Of a DNA stretch of 64,000 bases, positions 8,286-57,968 are shown one piece after another. The position numbers were made by a program, and so were the translations under genes. Below the pieces are notes generated by a model. That model saw nothing but the letters and a program-made list of their open reading frames with translations. It was not told the DNA's origin and made no database searches. The stretch covers positions 1,416,756 through 1,480,755 of the forward strand of contig NZ_LT629945.1 in assembly GCF_900104675.1 (NCBI RefSeq). Direction: 5' to 3'. How positions within the stretch are numbered: position 1 is the first letter of the stretch; every line of letters starts with the position of its first letter. Source of the stretch: Angelakisella massiliensis (lineage in GTDB: Bacteria; Bacillota; Clostridia; Oscillospirales; Ruminococcaceae).

Positions 8286-9485
8286 ATGAAGGAACTGATC
8301 CTGCTTAAAAGCGGAGAGGTAGTCCTCAAGGGCCTCAACCGCCATAATTTTGAGGATGTGATGATCAAGAACATGAAGCGGCGCATTGAGGATCTGGGCG
8401 CGTTCCGCATCTGGAAAAAGCAGTCCACCCTTTATGTGGAGCCTCAGAGCGAGGACATTGACATGGATCTGTTGGTCAGCCGTCTGCAAACGGTATTCGG
8501 CATCGCCGCGCTGACCCGGGCCTGCATCGTGGAAAAGAATTTTGAGGACATCTGCGCCAAAAGCCGGGAATATCTGGCTGAGACGCTGGAGGAGGCCCGG
8601 ACCTTCAAGGTGGAGGCAAAGCGGGCGGATAAGCTGTTCCCCATGACCTCTCCGGAGATCTGCCGGGAGCTGGGCGGTCAGCTGCTGGAGGAGTTTCCCC
8701 ATCTGCGGGTGGATGTGGAGCATCCCGACGTCACTGTAACAGTGGAGATCCGTGAAACCGCGGCTTATGTACATACCAATCAGCTTCCTGGCGCCGGAGG
8801 CATGCCGGTGGGTACCTCCGGCAAGGCGGCGATGCTTCTCTCCGGCGGCATCGACAGCCCGGTGGCGGGCTATATGATGGCCAAACGGGGACTGGAGCTG
8901 ATCGCCATTCACTTTGCCAGCCCACCTTATACCAGCGACCGGGCCCGGCAGAAGGTGATTTCCCTGGGAGAAAAGCTGCTCCCCTATACCGGCAAGATCC
9001 GGCTGTTTGTGGTGCCCTTTACGGAGATCCAGGAGCAGCTGCGGCAGCGGGGTCCGGAGGACTATTTCACCCTGCTGATGCGCCGGGCCATGATGCGGGT
9101 TGCTGAAGCCATCGCCAAGCGGGAGGAGTGCGGCGGCCTGATCACCGGGGAGAGCCTGGCCCAGGTGGCCAGTCAGACCCTGCCGGCGCTGGCCTGTACC
9201 GATATGGTAACGGAACTGCCGGTGCTGCGGCCCCTCATCGGTATGGATAAGGAGGAGATCATCCGCATTGCCCGGAAGATCGACACCTTTGATACTTCCA
9301 TCCTCCCTTATGAGGATTGCTGCACTGTCTTTACCCCCCGCCATCCTAAAACCAAGCCCCGTCCGGCCGAGGTGGCCCGGATCGAAGAGGAGATGGCCCT
9401 GGAGCCGGAGCTGTTCCAGCGGGCGGTGGATGAGGCAGAGCTGGTGGTTTTGTCCCGCCGGCACAGTGGTTATCGCGAAGTCTGA
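8286..9485 (+). CDS. thiI: tRNA 4-thiouridine synthase ThiI (short form)
   Basis: A 399-residue enzyme that makes 4-thiouridine at tRNA position 8. The N-terminal ferredoxin-like and THUMP domains span roughly residues 1-165, followed by a PP-loop adenylation domain with SGGIDSPVAGYM. The protein stops after the PP-loop domain and lacks the C-terminal rhodanese domain of enterobacterial ThiI, so persulfide must come from the desulfurase encoded just upstream. The ATG at 8286 follows an AGGAGAG site. ThiI in some bacteria also serves thiamin thiazole synthesis, but the rhodanese needed for that is missing here. Confidence 0.95.
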   Translation: MKELILLKSGEVVLKGLNRHNFEDVMIKNMKRRIEDLGAFRIWKKQSTLYVEPQSEDIDMDLLVSRLQTVFGIAALTRACIVEKNFEDICAKSREYLAETLEEARTFKVEAKRADKLFPMTSPEICRELGGQLLEEFPHLRVDVEHPDVTVTVEIRETAAYVHTNQLPGAGGMPVGTSGKAAMLLSGGIDSPVAGYMMAKRGLELIAIHFASPPYTSDRARQKVISLGEKLLPYTGKIRLFVVPFTEIQEQLRQRGPEDYFTLLMRRAMMRVAEAIAKREECGGLITGESLAQVASQTLPALACTDMVTELPVLRPLIGMDKEEIIRIARKIDTFDTSILPYEDCCTVFTPRHPKTKPRPAEVARIEEEMALEPELFQRAVDEAELVVLSRRHSGYREV

Positions 9486-9515
9486 TCCCAAGGAACAAGG
9501 GAGGAAAAGGATTTG

Positions 9516-12500
9516 ATGAAAGCAGTTTTGCTGGCCGTGGGAGAAGCCGCGGTTTACAGCGACTTTTTCCAGGCCAGTATGACTTATCTCCGTCAAGCGC
9601 TGGAACGGCTGAAGATCCAGGCCGACCAGGCCGTGGCGTGTTCCGCCGATGAGGAGGAGCTTTTTGAACTGGTGCGGGAGTATTCCCATCAATCTCAGCT
9701 GGTGGTGCTGCTCACCGCACCCCAGCCGGAAGCGGCGGCAGCGGTCTGCCAGGTGGTGGCCCATGGGCTTCATCTGGAGACAAAGATCAATAAAACGGCC
9801 CTTTCCCTGGTGCAGGAGCATTTGCAGCGCACAGGGATGGAACTTTCCGGGGAGGAGCAGGAATGCTATGCCCGGATGCCTCAAAGCGCCCTGCTGCTGC
9901 CCAACAGCAGCGGTTTTGTCCAGGGCTATGTACTGGCCGCCAGACAGCAGATGCTGTTGGTATTGCCTGCCAGCCCCAGTGAGCTGCATCTGGTGTTTAA
10001 CCATGATGTGGAACAGCTGTTGGTGCGTTTTGGCAACCTCCTTCGGGACCGCCAGCGCCCGGCTCAGAACAGCGGCGGTCCTTCAGCGGTACGGATGACC
10101 CTGAAAGCGGCGGAGGTAGGCAGCAAGTCGGTGGCGCAGCTGCTGGAGCCTTTCCTGAAAGAAGAAGATCCACAGCTGAATTACCGCTATACAGCAGGGG
10201 ATTATGAGATCACCGCCGAAGCCACCGGCAGCACCCGTCAGGAAGCGGAAGAAAAGCTGGACAGTTTGTATGAAAAGCTGGCTCAGGCGTTGGGTCCTTG
10301 TCTGTACAGCAGCAAGCGGCAGTCCATGGCGGCTGCAGTCTGTGAGGCGCTTTCCTCAGCGGGGCTGACCATTGCGGTGGCGGAATCCGGTACCGGCGGG
10401 CTGCTCAGCCAAAAGATCCTGCGTCTTTCAGATACTCAGCGGGTTTTAGACGGGAATTCTGGGGTATTCTATAACAGAGCCAAATTGGAAACTCTGGACA
10501 TTTCCAAAAAACTCCTTTCCTCCTGTGGTACCATCAGCCGTCAGGCTGCCGCTGCTATGGCGCTGAAAGCCCGTCAGGCGGCTGGAACCTCGCTGGGTGT
10601 TTCCATCACCGCCTCGGTGGGAAAATCTTCCGATCCCACCAAGCCGTCAGGTGTGGTCTATCTGGCGATCACCAACGGCAAGCAGGTCTGGAGCCGCCAG
10701 CTGCGGCTGGGAGAGGGGGACGCCGATACTCAGCGGGAGATCGCGGCGCTTCATGCGCTGAATATGCTTCGCCTGTATGCAGTGCAGCAGGGGAATCTGC
10801 CGGGCGGCGTTCCCGCGGAAGAGGCGCTGCGCGCCAAAGCAGGCGGCGGCAAGGGAGTTTCTTTGTTCCAGGGGCTGTTCCATTCGGCCAAATCAGGTTC
10901 CCGTAGTAAAAAGAAGGGAACAAGTAAGGAGAAGGATGCCTCCAACATGGAACAACCAACCGAAAAAAGCAGCCTGATGCAGCGATTCCGGGCGGGTAAG
11001 CTCACCTCCAACGACAAGGTGCGGGTCATCGCGGTGGCAGTGTGTCTGGCGGTGTTCCTCAGCTGTCTGGTGTATATCGGCAGCGTTTATCTGGAGCGGT
11101 ACAATAACCGCAAGCTGTCCGATGCGCTCCGTGGCCTCATCAGCGACGACATCACCGCTTCCGACGCAGCTATGATCGATGGATATCCTGCCGCCTATCT
11201 GCCCAAGTTTGCCAACCTCTATGCTCAGAATGAGGACATCGCCGGCTGGATCAAGATCCCTGACACACAGGTGGATTATGCTGTGGTACAGACGGTGGAC
11301 AACAGCTATTACGAGCGGCGGGACTTCACCCGGGCCAGTAATAACCACGGTGTTCCCTTTGTGGATTTCCGGGTGGATCAGCGCGCCCCCAGTACCAATA
11401 CTGTTATTTATGCCCACAACATGAATGATGGTCAGATGTTCGGAGAACTGCTCAACTATAAGTCCATTGCTTATTACCGGGAACATCCCTTGGTACAGTA
11501 TGACAGCGTCTATTATCCGGGCACTTATAAAATTTTCGGAATCGTCGTATGCAAAAAGGACGACCCGGAATTCAACTATCACAACTTCATTGAAAAAGAC
11601 AGCGATGAGGATCTGATGAATTATGTCAATCAGATCAAGGAACGCAGCCTGATCAACACCACTGTGGACGTACTGCCCAGCGACCATCTGCTGACCCTGT
11701 CCACCTGTGATTATTCCTTCCGCAGCGCAAGCGGTGAACGGATTGCCCGCTTTGTGGTTTTTGCCCGGAAGGTACGGGATGGGGAACGCACAGAGGTGGA
11801 TACAGCAGGAGCAACCATCAACTACAATCCTGTGATGCCCGCCGAGTGGTATGCCGCCATTTCCAAGGCACAGGAGCAGGAGCGTCAGGCGGAAGAGCAA
11901 GCGGCAGCCTCCGCGGCGGCAAGCAGCGGCAAGTGGCTCACTGACGAGGAGAAGAGCGGTTTGTCCGCCGAAGAGCAGACAGCCCTTTCCGCTGAGCGTG
12001 CTCAAAACGCTCAGAAGTATCTGACCAGCGACGAGCAGTCCGAGCTGTCCCTGGACAGTATGCTTTATTTGATAGAGCAGCGTAAGGAAATGTTCCAGCT
12101 TTACCTGTCCAGCAGTGAGCAGGATCTTTCCCTTTCAAAGAAATTGGATCTGGCCCAGCAGCGGCAGGATCTGGCGGAACAGTGGCTGACGGACAGCGAA
12201 ATTTATTCTGCCGGACGCTGGAACAGGATCGAGGCTCTCATTGAAGAGCGGATGGAGGAGTACGGGGAACAAATGCCTTCCAGCTCCTCCGGTACATCAT
12301 CCTCCGGTTCTTCCCTGCCCTCCGCGGGGACTGAAGCGGAGCAGTACATCAAGGATAATCCCAAGTGGCTGGACAGCGGCGATAGCGGATTGTCTGTGCG
12401 GGATTTGAGAAACCTGGTGGAGGAACGCAAGGCTCTGGCCCGTGAGTGGGGAGTGGATTCCGACCGCTATGGTACCTGGGAGGAAATGAGCGCTGCCATT

Positions 12501-13058
12501 GATGACGCCCGGCGGGAGGATCTGTATCAGTCCAACCGGATGTGGCTCAATGAGAGTGAGCGGGGGATTTCCTACAGCAAGATGTCTTCTCTGATTGCGG
12601 AGCGGAAAAAGATTGTTTCTGACGCCGGTTTCTCCCAGGAGGATGTGTGGGATTCCCACAGCTGGGATGAGACGCAACAGATCATCCGTGAGCTTCAGCA
12701 GTCATCCTCAGGTGGTTCCCTGCCTTCCTCCAGCAGTTCCAGCACACCTCCCAGCAGCTCCAGCACACCTCCCAGCAGCTCCAGTACACCTCCCAGCAGC
12801 TCCAGTACGCCTCCAAGCAGTTCCAGCAGCTTGCCGGACAGCTCCGGCAGTTCAAGCAGTCAGGAGTCTCTGCCGGACAGCTCTGAAAGTAGTTCCGGCA
12901 GCTCCAGCTCTCAGCAGGAGAGCTCCGGTACATCATCCTCCGAGTCCTCGCAAGAATCTTTGCCGGAGGATCCGTCCAACAGTTCGTCCCAGTCCCCGGA
13001 AGCTTCCCCATCTTCTTCTCAGCAGCAGGAACAGCCGGAGTCGGGAGAACAAGCCTGA
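9516..13058 (+). CDS. degenerate CinA fused to a class B sortase with repeat tail
   Basis: One uninterrupted 1180-codon frame. Residues 1-170 follow CinA N-domain (MoCF-like) layout, 190-265 its central KH-like domain, and 270-425 its C-domain (AVAESGTGG, FYNRAKLETL, GTISRQAAAAM). Expected active-site motifs are altered: the GGLGPT-type loop is LTAPQPEAA and the TGIAGP-type loop is ITASVG. A basic linker and one membrane helix (about 502-526) precede a class B sortase domain with catalytic His634 (YAHNM), Cys731 (LSTCDYSF) and Arg745 (IARFVVF). Residues 806-1062 hold helical repeats, and 1063-1180 are Ser/Pro/Gln-rich. CinA would be cytoplasmic and sortase outside. The gene follows thiI by 30 bases; TTG at 9513 is an alternative start. 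Sortase attaches surface proteins to the wall; the role of the CinA part is unknown. Confidence 0.88.
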   Translation: MKAVLLAVGEAAVYSDFFQASMTYLRQALERLKIQADQAVACSADEEELFELVREYSHQSQLVVLLTAPQPEAAAAVCQVVAHGLHLETKINKTALSLVQEHLQRTGMELSGEEQECYARMPQSALLLPNSSGFVQGYVLAARQQMLLVLPASPSELHLVFNHDVEQLLVRFGNLLRDRQRPAQNSGGPSAVRMTLKAAEVGSKSVAQLLEPFLKEEDPQLNYRYTAGDYEITAEATGSTRQEAEEKLDSLYEKLAQALGPCLYSSKRQSMAAAVCEALSSAGLTIAVAESGTGGLLSQKILRLSDTQRVLDGNSGVFYNRAKLETLDISKKLLSSCGTISRQAAAAMALKARQAAGTSLGVSITASVGKSSDPTKPSGVVYLAITNGKQVWSRQLRLGEGDADTQREIAALHALNMLRLYAVQQGNLPGGVPAEEALRAKAGGGKGVSLFQGLFHSAKSGSRSKKKGTSKEKDASNMEQPTEKSSLMQRFRAGKLTSNDKVRVIAVAVCLAVFLSCLVYIGSVYLERYNNRKLSDALRGLISDDITASDAAMIDGYPAAYLPKFANLYAQNEDIAGWIKIPDTQVDYAVVQTVDNSYYERRDFTRASNNHGVPFVDFRVDQRAPSTNTVIYAHNMNDGQMFGELLNYKSIAYYREHPLVQYDSVYYPGTYKIFGIVVCKKDDPEFNYHNFIEKDSDEDLMNYVNQIKERSLINTTVDVLPSDHLLTLSTCDYSFRSASGERIARFVVFARKVRDGERTEVDTAGATINYNPVMPAEWYAAISKAQEQERQAEEQAAASAAASSGKWLTDEEKSGLSAEEQTALSAERAQNAQKYLTSDEQSELSLDSMLYLIEQRKEMFQLYLSSSEQDLSLSKKLDLAQQRQDLAEQWLTDSEIYSAGRWNRIEALIEERMEEYGEQMPSSSSGTSSSGSSLPSAGTEAEQYIKDNPKWLDSGDSGLSVRDLRNLVEERKALAREWGVDSDRYGTWEEMSAAIDDARREDLYQSNRMWLNESERGISYSKMSSLIAERKKIVSDAGFSQEDVWDSHSWDETQQIIRELQQSSSGGSLPSSSSSSTPPSSSSTPPSSSSTPPSSSSTPPSSSSSLPDSSGSSSSQESLPDSSESSSGSSSSQQESSGTSSSESSQESLPEDPSNSSSQSPEASPSSSQQQEQPESGEQA
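12731..12814 (+). repeat. 21-bp tandem repeat, four units
   Basis: Four consecutive 21-base units beginning CAGCAG(T/C)TCCAG(C/T)AC lie inside the sortase tail and encode a 7-residue SSSSTPP-type unit. Units differ at only a few positions, and a diverged fifth unit follows. Confidence 0.85.
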
Positions 13059-13410: not shown

Positions 13411-14169
13411 ATGTCTGCGGACCATCGTTTTGCGGTACTCATTGATGCCGACAACGTTTCGGAAAAATATATCAAATTCATTCTGGACGAGCTGGCTACC
13501 GAGGGCACTATCACCTATAAAAGAATTTACGGGGACTGGACCAAACCTTCCCTGGGCTCCTGGAAAGGAGTGCTTCTGGACCATTCCATAACGCCCATTC
13601 AGCAGTACAGCTATACAGTGGGTAAAAACGCTACCGATTCCGCCATGATCATCGATGCCATGGACATTCTGTATACTGGCAATGTGGAGGGATTCTGCAT
13701 TGTTTCCAGTGACAGTGATTTTACCCGCCTGGCTTCACGTTTGCGGGAAGCGGGGAAATACGTTATTGGTATGGGGGAGAAAAAGACCCCCAGTCCCTTT
13801 GTGGCTGCCTGCAACAAGTTTACCTATCTGGAGGTATTGGGGCGGGAGAATGCCCCTGCCGCCGGGGAAACCTCTCAGGCGCCGGTGGAGGAAGTACAGG
13901 TCCGCATTCCTGTAAAGGATCTGTCCAAGGTGATCCGGAATATTGTGGACGAAACCTCTGATGACGACGGCTGGGCCACCGTCAGCGACATCGGCAATAT
14001 TCTCATCAAGCGTTATCCTGATTTCGATGTGCGCAACTACGGATTTAAAAAGCTGACCCGGCTGATCAATTCCCTGAACACCTTTGAAATCAAAACAGTA
14101 GGACGGCAGGACGGCGGCGGCAAGACCATCTATGTCCGCGAAAAAGTACAGAAGAAAGGAAAAAACTAA
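13411..14169 (+). CDS. NYN domain protein with C-terminal OST-HTH/LOTUS domain
   Basis: A 252-residue protein. Residues 1-140 form a NYN (PIN-like) nuclease domain with acidic residues in VLIDADNVS, DSAMIIDAMD and SSDSDFTRLASRLRE, the metal-binding set of LabA/MARF1-type RNases. The C-terminal part (about 165-245, KVIRNIVDE...VSDIGNILIKRYPDF) resembles an OST-HTH/LOTUS RNA-binding domain. Such proteins are thought to bind or cut RNA; the target is unknown. ATG 13411 is chosen because it begins the conserved NYN strand with an AAGGGGCGGG site before it; a TTG 21 bases upstream is also in frame. It seems monocistronic, flanked by terminators. Confidence 0.85.
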   Translation: MSADHRFAVLIDADNVSEKYIKFILDELATEGTITYKRIYGDWTKPSLGSWKGVLLDHSITPIQQYSYTVGKNATDSAMIIDAMDILYTGNVEGFCIVSSDSDFTRLASRLREAGKYVIGMGEKKTPSPFVAACNKFTYLEVLGRENAPAAGETSQAPVEEVQVRIPVKDLSKVIRNIVDETSDDDGWATVSDIGNILIKRYPDFDVRNYGFKKLTRLINSLNTFEIKTVGRQDGGGKTIYVREKVQKKGKN

Positions 14170-25203: not shown

Positions 25204-26190
25204 ATGAAAAAGTTCTGGAGCATTTTGCTCGCTTCCATGATGATCCTGTCCATGACTGCCTGCGGCGGCAGCGAAACTCCCGCCTCCTCCTCTTCCAGCG
25301 AGGCTGCTCCCGCTTCCAGCAGTGAGGCTGCTTCCAGCGAAGCCGCTTCCGCTTCCAGTGAGGCTGCTTCCAGCGAGGCCTCCGCGGAGACTGCCGATGT
25401 GCCCACCATGCCTGATGTTTCCAATGTGGATATGGCTGCGCTGGACGCTCAGATTGACGAGTTGGCCGCCAAAGTCACTCTGGCCAATGAGGGCAAGCTG
25501 GTTATGGGCACCTCCGCTGATTTTGCTCCCTATGAGTTCCACATCCTGGACAATGGGGTGGATAAGATCGTAGGCTTTGATGTGGCGCTGGGCCAGGCCA
25601 TTGCTGATGAGCTGGGCGTGGAGTTTGAGGTAAAGGACATCTCCTTCGATTCCATCCTGATGGAGCTCAACGCCGGTACCATTGATCTGGGTATTGCCGG
25701 CTTCTCTCCCACACCTGAGAGAATGGCTGCTGTTGATATGTCCTGCCTGTATTACACCGGTGGTCAGTCCCTGATGATCCGGAAGGCGGATGCTGATAAG
25801 TACACCGGTCTTTCCGACTTCGGCGCCGGTAAGTCCGTAGGCGCTCAGACTGGTTCCATCCAGGAAGGCTTGGCCAAGGAGCAGACCCCTGAAGCGGCTC
25901 TGGTTTCCCTCCAGACTGTTCCCTCCATCATCATGGAGCTGAAGTCCAACAAGATCGACGCGGCCTATATCGAAACTGTGGTGGCCGAAGGCTACGTCAA
26001 GACTCAGGATGACCTGATGATCCTCTGTGAGGTTCCCTTTGACGCGGAAGGTTCCTCTGTCGCTGTCAAGAAGGGCAACACCGAGATGCTGGATTTTGTC
26101 AATGCTGTCATCACCAAGGTGGTAGCCAATGGTGATATGGCCAAGTTTGTGGAAGAGGCCAATGAGCTTTCCACCCAGGCGGCAGGCTGA
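25204..26190 (+). CDS. polar amino acid ABC transporter substrate-binding lipoprotein
   Basis: A 328-residue family 3 extracellular solute-binding protein. The lipoprotein signal ends ILSMTACGG; a Ser/Ala/Glu-rich linker of about 45 residues follows, then the binding domain (GKLVMGTSADFAPYEF, IVGFDVALGQAIADELG, GTIDLGIAGFSPTPERM) typical of glutamine, arginine or other polar amino acid binding proteins. It is anchored outside the membrane and hands ligand to the permease encoded downstream. AAAGGAG precedes the ATG. A stem-loop separates it from the permease gene and probably keeps binding protein in excess. Exact ligand is not readable from sequence. Confidence 0.93.
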   Translation: MKKFWSILLASMMILSMTACGGSETPASSSSSEAAPASSSEAASSEAASASSEAASSEASAETADVPTMPDVSNVDMAALDAQIDELAAKVTLANEGKLVMGTSADFAPYEFHILDNGVDKIVGFDVALGQAIADELGVEFEVKDISFDSILMELNAGTIDLGIAGFSPTPERMAAVDMSCLYYTGGQSLMIRKADADKYTGLSDFGAGKSVGAQTGSIQEGLAKEQTPEAALVSLQTVPSIIMELKSNKIDAAYIETVVAEGYVKTQDDLMILCEVPFDAEGSSVAVKKGNTEMLDFVNAVITKVVANGDMAKFVEEANELSTQAAG

Positions 26191-57356: not shown

Positions 57357-57968
57357 ATGGCTAACATCGACGTATTACTCAATAATCTGGACGAAGTGCT
57401 GGAGAATTCCATGAATCTCCCGCTCTCCGGCGGCAGATGCATTGTGGACGCGGACAAGGTCCGGGATATTATCGATGAGATCCGTCTGAATATGCCCACC
57501 GAGATCAAGCAGGCCAAAGCGGTGGTGGCGGACCGCAATGAGATTTTGTCCATGGCCAGAAAGGAAGCGGAGGGGCTGATCCGCAAAGCGGAGGAGCGGG
57601 CCAAGGCTCTGGTAGATCAGGCGGCCATCACCCGCCAGGCCAACGCAAAGGCGCTGGCAATGCTCAACGAGGCCAATCAGAAGGCCACTGAGATCATGAC
57701 CCAGGCCACCACCAAGGCTTCCGATCTCACCAGCCAGACCACCAGCAAGGCCACCGATACGCTGACTCAGGCAAATCTTCGTTCCAGAGAGATGAAGCAG
57801 GCGGCTTATGATTTTTCCGAAAACGCTCTGCGGGCTACGGAGGAATCACTGGCCAAGGCCCTGGCAGAGGTGCGGGCTACCCGTCAGGCGCTGAAAACCA
57901 CTGCGGTGGAGTCCATGAGGGGCGCCCAAGGGGCTGGTCAAAGCGGCGTGCCCGGTCAAAAGGGCTGA
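57357..57968 (+). CDS. ATP synthase b/DivIVA-like coiled-coil protein
   Basis: A 203-residue protein, mostly alpha-helical. It starts ANIDVLLNNLDEVLENSM, then a long Ala/Lys/Glu-rich coiled coil (EILSMARKEAEGLIRKAEERAKALVDQA) leads into a Thr/Ser/Ala-rich stretch (about residues 115-145) with short repeats such as ATTKASDLTSQTTSKATD. No membrane helix. Similar proteins are encoded after coaD in clostridia and are often called ATPase or V-type subunit H-like without evidence. GGGAGG precedes the ATG. A structural or DivIVA-like role is possible. Confidence 0.75.
   Translation: MANIDVLLNNLDEVLENSMNLPLSGGRCIVDADKVRDIIDEIRLNMPTEIKQAKAVVADRNEILSMARKEAEGLIRKAEERAKALVDQAAITRQANAKALAMLNEANQKATEIMTQATTKASDLTSQTTSKATDTLTQANLRSREMKQAAYDFSENALRATEESLAKALAEVRATRQALKTTAVESMRGAQGAGQSGVPGQKG

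Follow-up and report, generated by a model that had tools for sequence, protein, structure and literature searches.

The window analysed here is a 64,000-nucleotide stretch of the forward strand of Angelakisella massiliensis contig NZ_LT629945.1 (positions 1,416,756 to 1,480,755), from a species that we take to be a gut bacterium. Class B sortases are membrane enzymes that pin proteins to the cell wall, while CinA is an enzyme that recycles nicotinamide adenine dinucleotide (NAD). In the window the two are found in a single gene on the + strand, which is open from the ATG at 9516 to the stop at 13058 and encodes 1180 amino acids, with a CinA-like part of three domains at the N-terminus. A hydrophobic helix connects this part to a class B sortase, behind which come helical repeats and a Ser/Pro tail. 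A whole metabolic enzyme has been placed before the presumed membrane anchor of a sortase, and this has occurred in many related bacteria. An earlier sequence-only reading of the window knew of no described fusion of this kind, and there is none among the titles and abstract starts listed in our searches of the openly licensed literature. The architecture exists, recurs in relatives and, within the reach of these searches, has no published description; it is built from two known families.

The CinA-like part begins with a COG1058 region (MoCF-like, adenosine diphosphate (ADP)-ribose pyrophosphatase; residues 1–180, 9516–10055), in which the metal-site residues are lost and which matches 3kbq with Z 20.9 over residues 1–171. 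This is followed by a CinA KH-type domain (residues 195–264, 10098–10307) that carries EVGSK in place of the GIGES loop and is matched by Pfam CinA_KH at E 0.0008, under the cut-off of that model, and by a PncC or nicotinamide mononucleotide (NMN) deamidase region (residues 269–419, 10320–10772; Pfam CinA E 1.5e-29; 5kvk Z 25.4), in which a Ser/Lys pair is kept and the phosphate-binding Tyr and Arg are substituted. Over residues 1–420 the full-length CinA equivalog model NF001813 scores 175.5 bits, far short of its cut-off of 379. Comparison of sequence rows places an LPGGVP junction motif at residues 428–433 (10797–10814). An in-frame ATG at residue 478 (10947–10949), with a weak ribosome binding site (-6.0), is possibly a relic of an srtB start or an internal start. 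It lies ahead of the hydrophobic helix, presumed from the sequence and the model to span the membrane (residues 501–523, 11016–11084). The class B sortase domain occupies residues 561–755 (11196–11780) and is matched by Pfam Sortase (579–753, E 1.2e-10) and by the NCBIfam srtB model TIGR03064 (505–735, 158.8 bits against a cut-off of 153.75), with the catalytic triad His634, Cys731 and Arg745 in place. Behind it lie helical repeats of the WLTxxE type, presumed from sequence and model to be outside the membrane (residues 805–1062, 11928–12701), and a Ser/Pro/Glu-rich tail (12702–13055) that has no recognised sorting signal and contains 21-base tandem repeats at 12730–12828.

An AlphaFold2 model of residues 1–807, built on 20 aligned sequences, predicts both a CinA and a sortase B fold in a single chain, with a mean predicted local distance difference test score (pLDDT) of 84.6 and a predicted template modelling score of 0.42. 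Scores fall below 50 at residues 442–485, and a long helix is modelled at 498–541. In VIA-align 2, residues 1–420 of the model match Thermus thermophilus CinA (4ct8 chain B) with Z 28.8 over 375 residues; the root-mean-square deviation (rmsd) of 9.7 would be expected if domain placement differs. Residues 524–755 match Bacillus anthracis SrtB (2oqw) with Z 27.8 and rmsd 2.2 over 208 residues. By score, triad and predicted fold, the window protein qualifies as a class B sortase, and the single gene, the class B sortase and the degenerate CinA part had all been read correctly from the sequence. The Ser/Lys pair of the deamidase site and the helical repeats had gone unnoted. The helical repeats were modelled separately (pLDDT 83.3); a Foldseek comparison of this model with the PDB gave 18 matches with none below E 1, which is not proof of a new fold.

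The protein shares with known class B sortases (TIGR03064; Clostridioides difficile SrtB, Staphylococcus aureus 4lfd, B. anthracis 2oqw) the fold, the triad and a hydrophobic helix before the domain, but it adds the long C-terminal repeats and the Ser/Pro tail. In C. difficile SrtB the anchor is formed by residues 2–25, according to the excerpts of PMC4155245 consulted, whereas about 500 residues precede the hydrophobic helix here. With CinA (T. thermophilus 4ct8, Streptococcus mutans 6mr3) it has in common the COG1058-KH-PncC order and all three domains, but it is without the pyrophosphatase residues, has substituted the deamidase phosphate-binding residues and is joined to a sortase.

Occurrence of the fusion in related bacteria

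The sequence-only reading had named a sequencing error joining two adjacent genes as one way in which the fusion could prove false. CinA and sortase are, however, in one stop-free frame in nine of the 10 genus genomes, the window's own included. In the tenth (G007) the match begins at base 2 of a contig whose edge falls inside the sortase, and in one of the nine (G005) the contig ends inside the tail of the fusion gene. Identity to the window protein is 41–85% in the eight other genus genomes with the fusion. We compared the window with its near copy L020 (genome G009). Ratios of nonsynonymous to synonymous substitution (dN/dS) ran from 0.017 in the sortase to 0.438 in the tail, with 0.108 in the CinA part, 0.065 in the KH domain, 0.105 in the repeats and 0.296 in the linker; the neighbouring thiI had 0.063. 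The CinA part is under purifying selection in this pair, the one measured. These values and the genus-wide single frame rule out a sequencing or assembly artefact.

Nor is the fusion unique to one genome. Among named public records, titled Angelakisella, uncultured Oscillospiraceae, Oscillospiraceae bacterium or Candidatus Heteroruminococcus, nine of 11 loci were found fused (L008–L016). Counts from the taxonomic samples are limited by the E-value cut and by short flanks. In the family sample of 61 genomes, 19 had a sortase match at E 1e-45 or better, and cinA was fused to or beside the sortase gene in 18 of them: 15 are one-frame fusions and three have separate neighbours (G022, G053, G018), with one genome (G061) showing neither state. 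The sortase profile was matched by 29 of the 79 genomes in the order sample, where nine are fused (window included), six have adjacent genes and 14 are without a CinA match in flanks of about 1.5 kb, giving a fused or adjacent state in 15/29. The class sample of 118 genomes yielded 25 with matches, 22 of them outside the order, and at the 26 loci of these 22 genomes CinA was not found beside the sortase within 1.5-kb flanks. The fusions in the family and order samples rule out a lone oddity of one genome.

The gene upstream of the fusion is thiI, encoding tRNA uracil 4-sulfurtransferase (8286–9485, + strand; NCBIfam TIGR00342, 391.7 bits). Its stop is separated from the ATG at 9516 by 30 bases, within which lies a ribosome binding site, GGGAGG (9499–9504, duplex energy -10.4). 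Of the 18 genomes in the family sample that have cinA at srtB, 16 also carry thiI upstream, and the other two loci end before reaching it; nifS precedes thiI in the window and in seven longer loci (L008–L010, L012–L015). Fusions in relatives (L051–L054, L057, L058, L061, L066, L071, L115, L120 and others), as CinA-SrtB or CinA-SrtB-SpoIID, have the same domain order as the window protein, with thiI upstream where the locus reaches that far. They differ from it in that some have intact CinA sites and some end in a SpoIID/LytB domain rather than in repeats.

A locus with separate genes in close relatives had also been named as evidence against the fusion. Separate genes were seen in none of the genus genomes; they do occur in more distant relatives (L062, L063, L065 and six order-sample genomes), where they point to a route by which the fusion may have arisen and not to the fusion being false. 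In nine separate cinA/srtB pairs, the earliest candidate start of srtB falls inside cinA in L117 and L139, lies 14–26 bases behind it in L062, L063, L065 and L116 and about 70 bases behind it in L122 and L124, while none could be assigned in L114; six of the nine thus overlap or are no more than 26 bases apart. Only in L062 are the two genes in the same frame, so that losing a stop codon would not by itself suffice for most joins. Six changes between the fused and the adjacent state are required on the best sortase tree.

Several relatives show further rearrangement of the same protein. A SpoIID/LytB wall-hydrolase domain stands at the C-terminus of the sortase in L051–L053, L057–L060 and L071 (about 960–1300 amino acids, most with CinA in front), and SpoIID/LytB is a separate following gene in, for example, L015, L054, L061, L062, L066 and L116. 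Five of the fused forms were checked by Pfam, which confirmed the domain in L052, L059 and L060 and not in L057 and L071, where the assignment rests on phmmer with the L062 gene. In the openly licensed titles and abstract starts searched, nothing was found that pairs SpoIID with a class B sortase. The CinA part is undetected in L059 and only partly present in L057 and L060, with the sortase retained in all three. The sortase triad is intact in 31 of 33 distinct fused rows; the catalytic His and Cys are gone from the fused sortases of L056 and L071, in L056 together with the Arg, and judged by these residues the sortase part of a fusion can itself become a pseudoenzyme. A second, closely related sortase gene (L016:9323–11389, a 689-amino-acid frame) lies directly behind the fusion in L016; it is the row nearest to the fusion on the sortase tree and probably arose when the sortase part was duplicated. 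In L015, L024, L026 and L068 the sortase is followed by apparent bacterial Ig-like domains (Big_2 by Pfam in L068, the others by eye), which suggests that the outer tail is exchanged while the rest of the protein stays.

State of the CinA catalytic sites

Reference residues for T. thermophilus CinA (TtCinA) are E12, D45, D76, E156 and E187 for the pyrophosphatase and R377, Y296, K301 and T340 for the deamidase, as given in excerpts of PMC4246079; those for AtCinA are S31, K63, Y58, T105 and R145, from excerpts of PMC5384747. In the window protein E12, D45, D76 and the KH-domain E187 are replaced by A, A, A and S. At the deamidase site S31, K63 and T105 are kept (S291, K323, T365), while C32, Y58, P110 and R145 have become G, F, K and A, with F318 and A403 in the places of the phosphate-binding Tyr and Arg. 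Both CinA catalytic loops are altered, as had been noted, and read TAPQPEAAAA at residue 67 and SITASVG at 363. Among the nine genus rows, D76 and D45 are kept in none, E12 in one, E187 in five and E156, within an LPxxPxEL motif, in all nine; for the deamidase, Y58 is kept in one row, R145 in two, S31 in five, T105 in seven and K63 in nine. Judged by residues, the window protein fails the tests for both CinA activities, and in its genus the pyrophosphatase site is lost and the deamidase site is lost in large part.

The description of the CinA part as a pseudoenzyme holds for the window protein and does not extend to the fusions as a whole, since some relatives keep all the catalytic residues that were checked. 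Fused genes with the checked residues of both sites are present in L061, L066, L078 (the L054 gene), L115, L120, L121, L123, L125 and L126, with Arg at K211 in L121, L123, L125 and L126. The deamidase site alone is intact in L064, L089, L113 and L133.

Conservation of the old pockets was examined over 405 alignment columns, of which 31 pocket columns were chosen from PMC4246079 and PMC5384747 together with loop neighbours. The genus entropies were calculated without L020, which nearly duplicates the window; the residue tallies include it. For 21 reference CinAs, comprising standalone and adjacent copies as well as fused copies whose sites are intact, mean entropy was 0.14 in the COG1058/KH pocket and 0.10 in the deamidase pocket against 1.35 for all columns, and none of 10000 random draws of columns was as low. 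In the genus the corresponding values were 1.28 and 1.29 against 1.22 for all columns, and random column sets were as low in 64% and 66% of draws. Where columns are conserved in the references, the genus has kept the reference residue in 17% of cells in the COG1058 pocket, 52% in the deamidase pocket and 45% elsewhere; the first of these figures implies that the pyrophosphatase pocket has decayed faster than the rest of the domain. A role for the CinA part in binding and signalling a nucleotide had been suggested, but in the genus, conservation of the pocket columns does not exceed that of an average column of the CinA part, and nucleotide sensing through the old CinA pocket is not supported by the alignment.

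In the genus, 50 columns are conserved with a residue that differs from the reference consensus, though most of these are variable in the references too. Residues that are invariant in the references have been swapped for a shared genus residue in T66L, A135V and P136Q (9/9) and in N114E and C292G (8/9). A PGG motif at the junction is present in all nine genus rows and in L015, and is absent from L052, L054, L061 and L066, in which the deamidase site is intact. The new shared residues and the PGG motif favour a changed job for the CinA part over simple decay. W392 was considered as a mark of the degenerate clade and was rejected, as W is also found in L061, L054 and L052 with an intact deamidase site.

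A canonical standalone CinA is encoded elsewhere in the window's genome (L006). Such a second CinA was found in none of eight genomes with an intact srtB-linked deamidase site and in 15 of 17 with a degenerate fused copy (Fisher p 4e-5); these counts exclude G007, in which the fused gene is cut, and G061, where the sortase has no neighbouring CinA, and several of the assemblies are incomplete. A CinA tree made by a quick method, with 57 of 59 rows (L057 and L060 omitted), places the standalone copies on one branch with a Shimodaira–Hasegawa-like approximate likelihood ratio test (SH-aLRT) value of 99 and the degenerate fused copies on one side of a branch with a value of 86. This second split is soft, because several degenerate rows sit on long branches. 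Fused rows from the order genomes were grouped as intact by default in this tree, and their deamidase residues held on a later check. The pattern fits a history in which another CinA was at hand and the fused copy was then free to lose catalysis.

Possible role of the CinA part

We consider it somewhat probable, at roughly 55%, that in the window member a functional class B sortase carries a pseudoenzyme derived from CinA, which acts in the cytoplasm as a scaffold or binds a partner there. The arrangement from which it may have arisen is still visible in the order, where cinA and srtB are often adjacent in a thiI-linked cluster, mostly within about 30 bases or overlapping. The loss of a stop or a frameshift would have joined the two genes, or the join would have been undone, more than once; the pattern of states is observed, and its cause and direction are our interpretation. 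The catalytic residues of the fused CinA survive in some lineages, and in the window's lineage, where a standalone CinA is present elsewhere, many have been lost. There the modelled CinA fold and purifying selection persist, with pockets that are not specially conserved. The CinA part would lie inside the cell as a scaffold on the inner face of the membrane, most likely holding the sortase as a dimer, or would bind a partner by way of its newly conserved positions. The dimer is suggested by analogy, because the two studied CinA enzymes are dimers (excerpts of PMC4246079 and PMC5384747), and partner binding is possible. Outside the cell the sortase would attach secreted proteins, possibly ones that bear signals of the NPxTG type, with its repeats and tail extending into the wall.

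A number of observations weigh against this interpretation. Of the six changes in fusion state, no more than one or two are required by well-supported branches of the sortase tree. The deamidase pocket, at 52% against 45% of cells kept, has decayed like the rest of the domain, and the deamidase positions E30 and T33 are kept in 8/9 genus rows and G35 and K63 in 9/9, so that leftover ligand binding is possible. Two genomes with a degenerate copy, G006 and G040, have no other CinA, and the genomes that make up the second-CinA pattern are related and provide one supported independent contrast (three on all branches), so that the pattern may reflect a single event. The scaffold role is itself inferred from what the CinA part has lost. 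On the side of the sortase, no substrate was found in the window or beside the fusion gene, and the srtB-target model gave no match in the window's own genome at E up to 1. The two NPxTG candidates of that genome, described below, were read by eye and score below the cut-off of the anchor model, and the genome encodes at least five further sortases that might act on them, one of which shares a contig with the NPDTG candidate.

The CinA part could instead be a fossil of the joining of two genes that folds, spares the sortase and does nothing more. Consistent with this, the sortase persists where CinA is undetected (L059) or partial (L057, L060), and the CinA part evolves faster than the sortase (0.108 against 0.017). 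We regard a passive role as unlikely, however, as about 420 residues have been kept in all nine genus genomes that have this part of the gene, down to 41% identity over the protein, with a dN/dS near 0.1 in the one pair measured, and as the new shared residues and the PGG motif are not what such a leftover would lead us to expect. A sensor of nucleotide or NAD state, signalling through the membrane helix to the sortase, would account for the retention of the E156 equivalent, G35 and K63 in all nine genus rows and of E30 in eight, and intact-site CinA enzymes are fused to the same sortase in relatives. It is quite unlikely given pocket columns as variable as the average, the loss of both D76 and D45 in all nine rows and a linker (422–500) that evolves fast and is poorly modelled over 442–485, which would make a poor signal path.

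Still less probable is a weak, membrane-tethered NMN deamidase. The window protein does retain the Ser and Lys of the catalytic pair as well as the Thr, but in AtCinA the Y58F substitution removed 99.7% of the efficiency, and R145A abolished activity and strongly reduced the melting point (excerpts of PMC5384747), and F and A are what the window protein carries at these two positions, along with G and K at C32 and P110. The catalytic Ser is moreover missing in four of nine genus rows, and a canonical CinA is available elsewhere in the genome. We likewise give little credence to a gene with two products, in which an internal start (the ATG at residue 478, or the MNLIQKI-type Met of relatives) also yields free sortase. 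In eight of nine genus rows an in-frame ATG stands a short way ahead of the hydrophobic helix, close to the expected start of a separate srtB; the internal ribosome binding sites are weak, though (-4.4 to -6.6, against -10.4 at the start of the window's gene), the ATG before the helix ranks only second to ninth among internal ATGs, and L027 is without any.

A bolder proposal is that, in this order, NAD recycling has become part of wall anchoring. A single trans-envelope protein, made up of a membrane-tethered and active NMN deamidase and ADP-ribose pyrophosphatase, a class B sortase and sometimes also a SpoIID wall hydrolase, would then tie the anchoring of surface proteins to nucleotide state, and in the window's genus the enzyme part would have become a non-catalytic regulator acting through a new conserved surface and not through the old pocket. 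We think this rather improbable. Whichever role applies, the relatives span separate genes, a fused enzyme, a fused pseudoenzyme and near-loss, and this series allows a direct test of whether the CinA part is a regulator of the sortase, a means of dimerising it or a mere companion. The series also bears on how an enzyme turns into a scaffold. Automatic annotation under a single name would probably hide the link between CinA and sortase.

Candidate substrates and other features of the window

Class B sortases are often found in operons with their substrates, and C. difficile SrtB cleaves (S/P)PXTG peptides, according to excerpts of PMC4155245. A scan of the window and other loci for C-terminal sorting motifs gave three matches, none of them in the window. 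A search of the window's own genome with the anchor model yielded 11 matches at E values of 10 or less, of which only an LPQTG passed the cut-off. The two candidate class B sortase substrates in this genome are an NPQTG C-terminus at C6:23699 (L169, a 346-amino-acid frame) and an NPDTG C-terminus at C2:8927 (L172, a 359-amino-acid frame), each with a hydrophobic stretch and basic residues behind the motif.

Directly downstream of the fusion gene, at 13411–14169, is a gene with an NYN nuclease domain and a LOTUS/OST-HTH domain. Among the loci read, several of which end earlier, it is present only in the window's own genome (L019) and in its nearest relative (L008/L020). Short tandem repeats occur elsewhere in the window at 25288–25380 (units of 15–36 bases) and at 57681–57757 (a unit of 33 bases).

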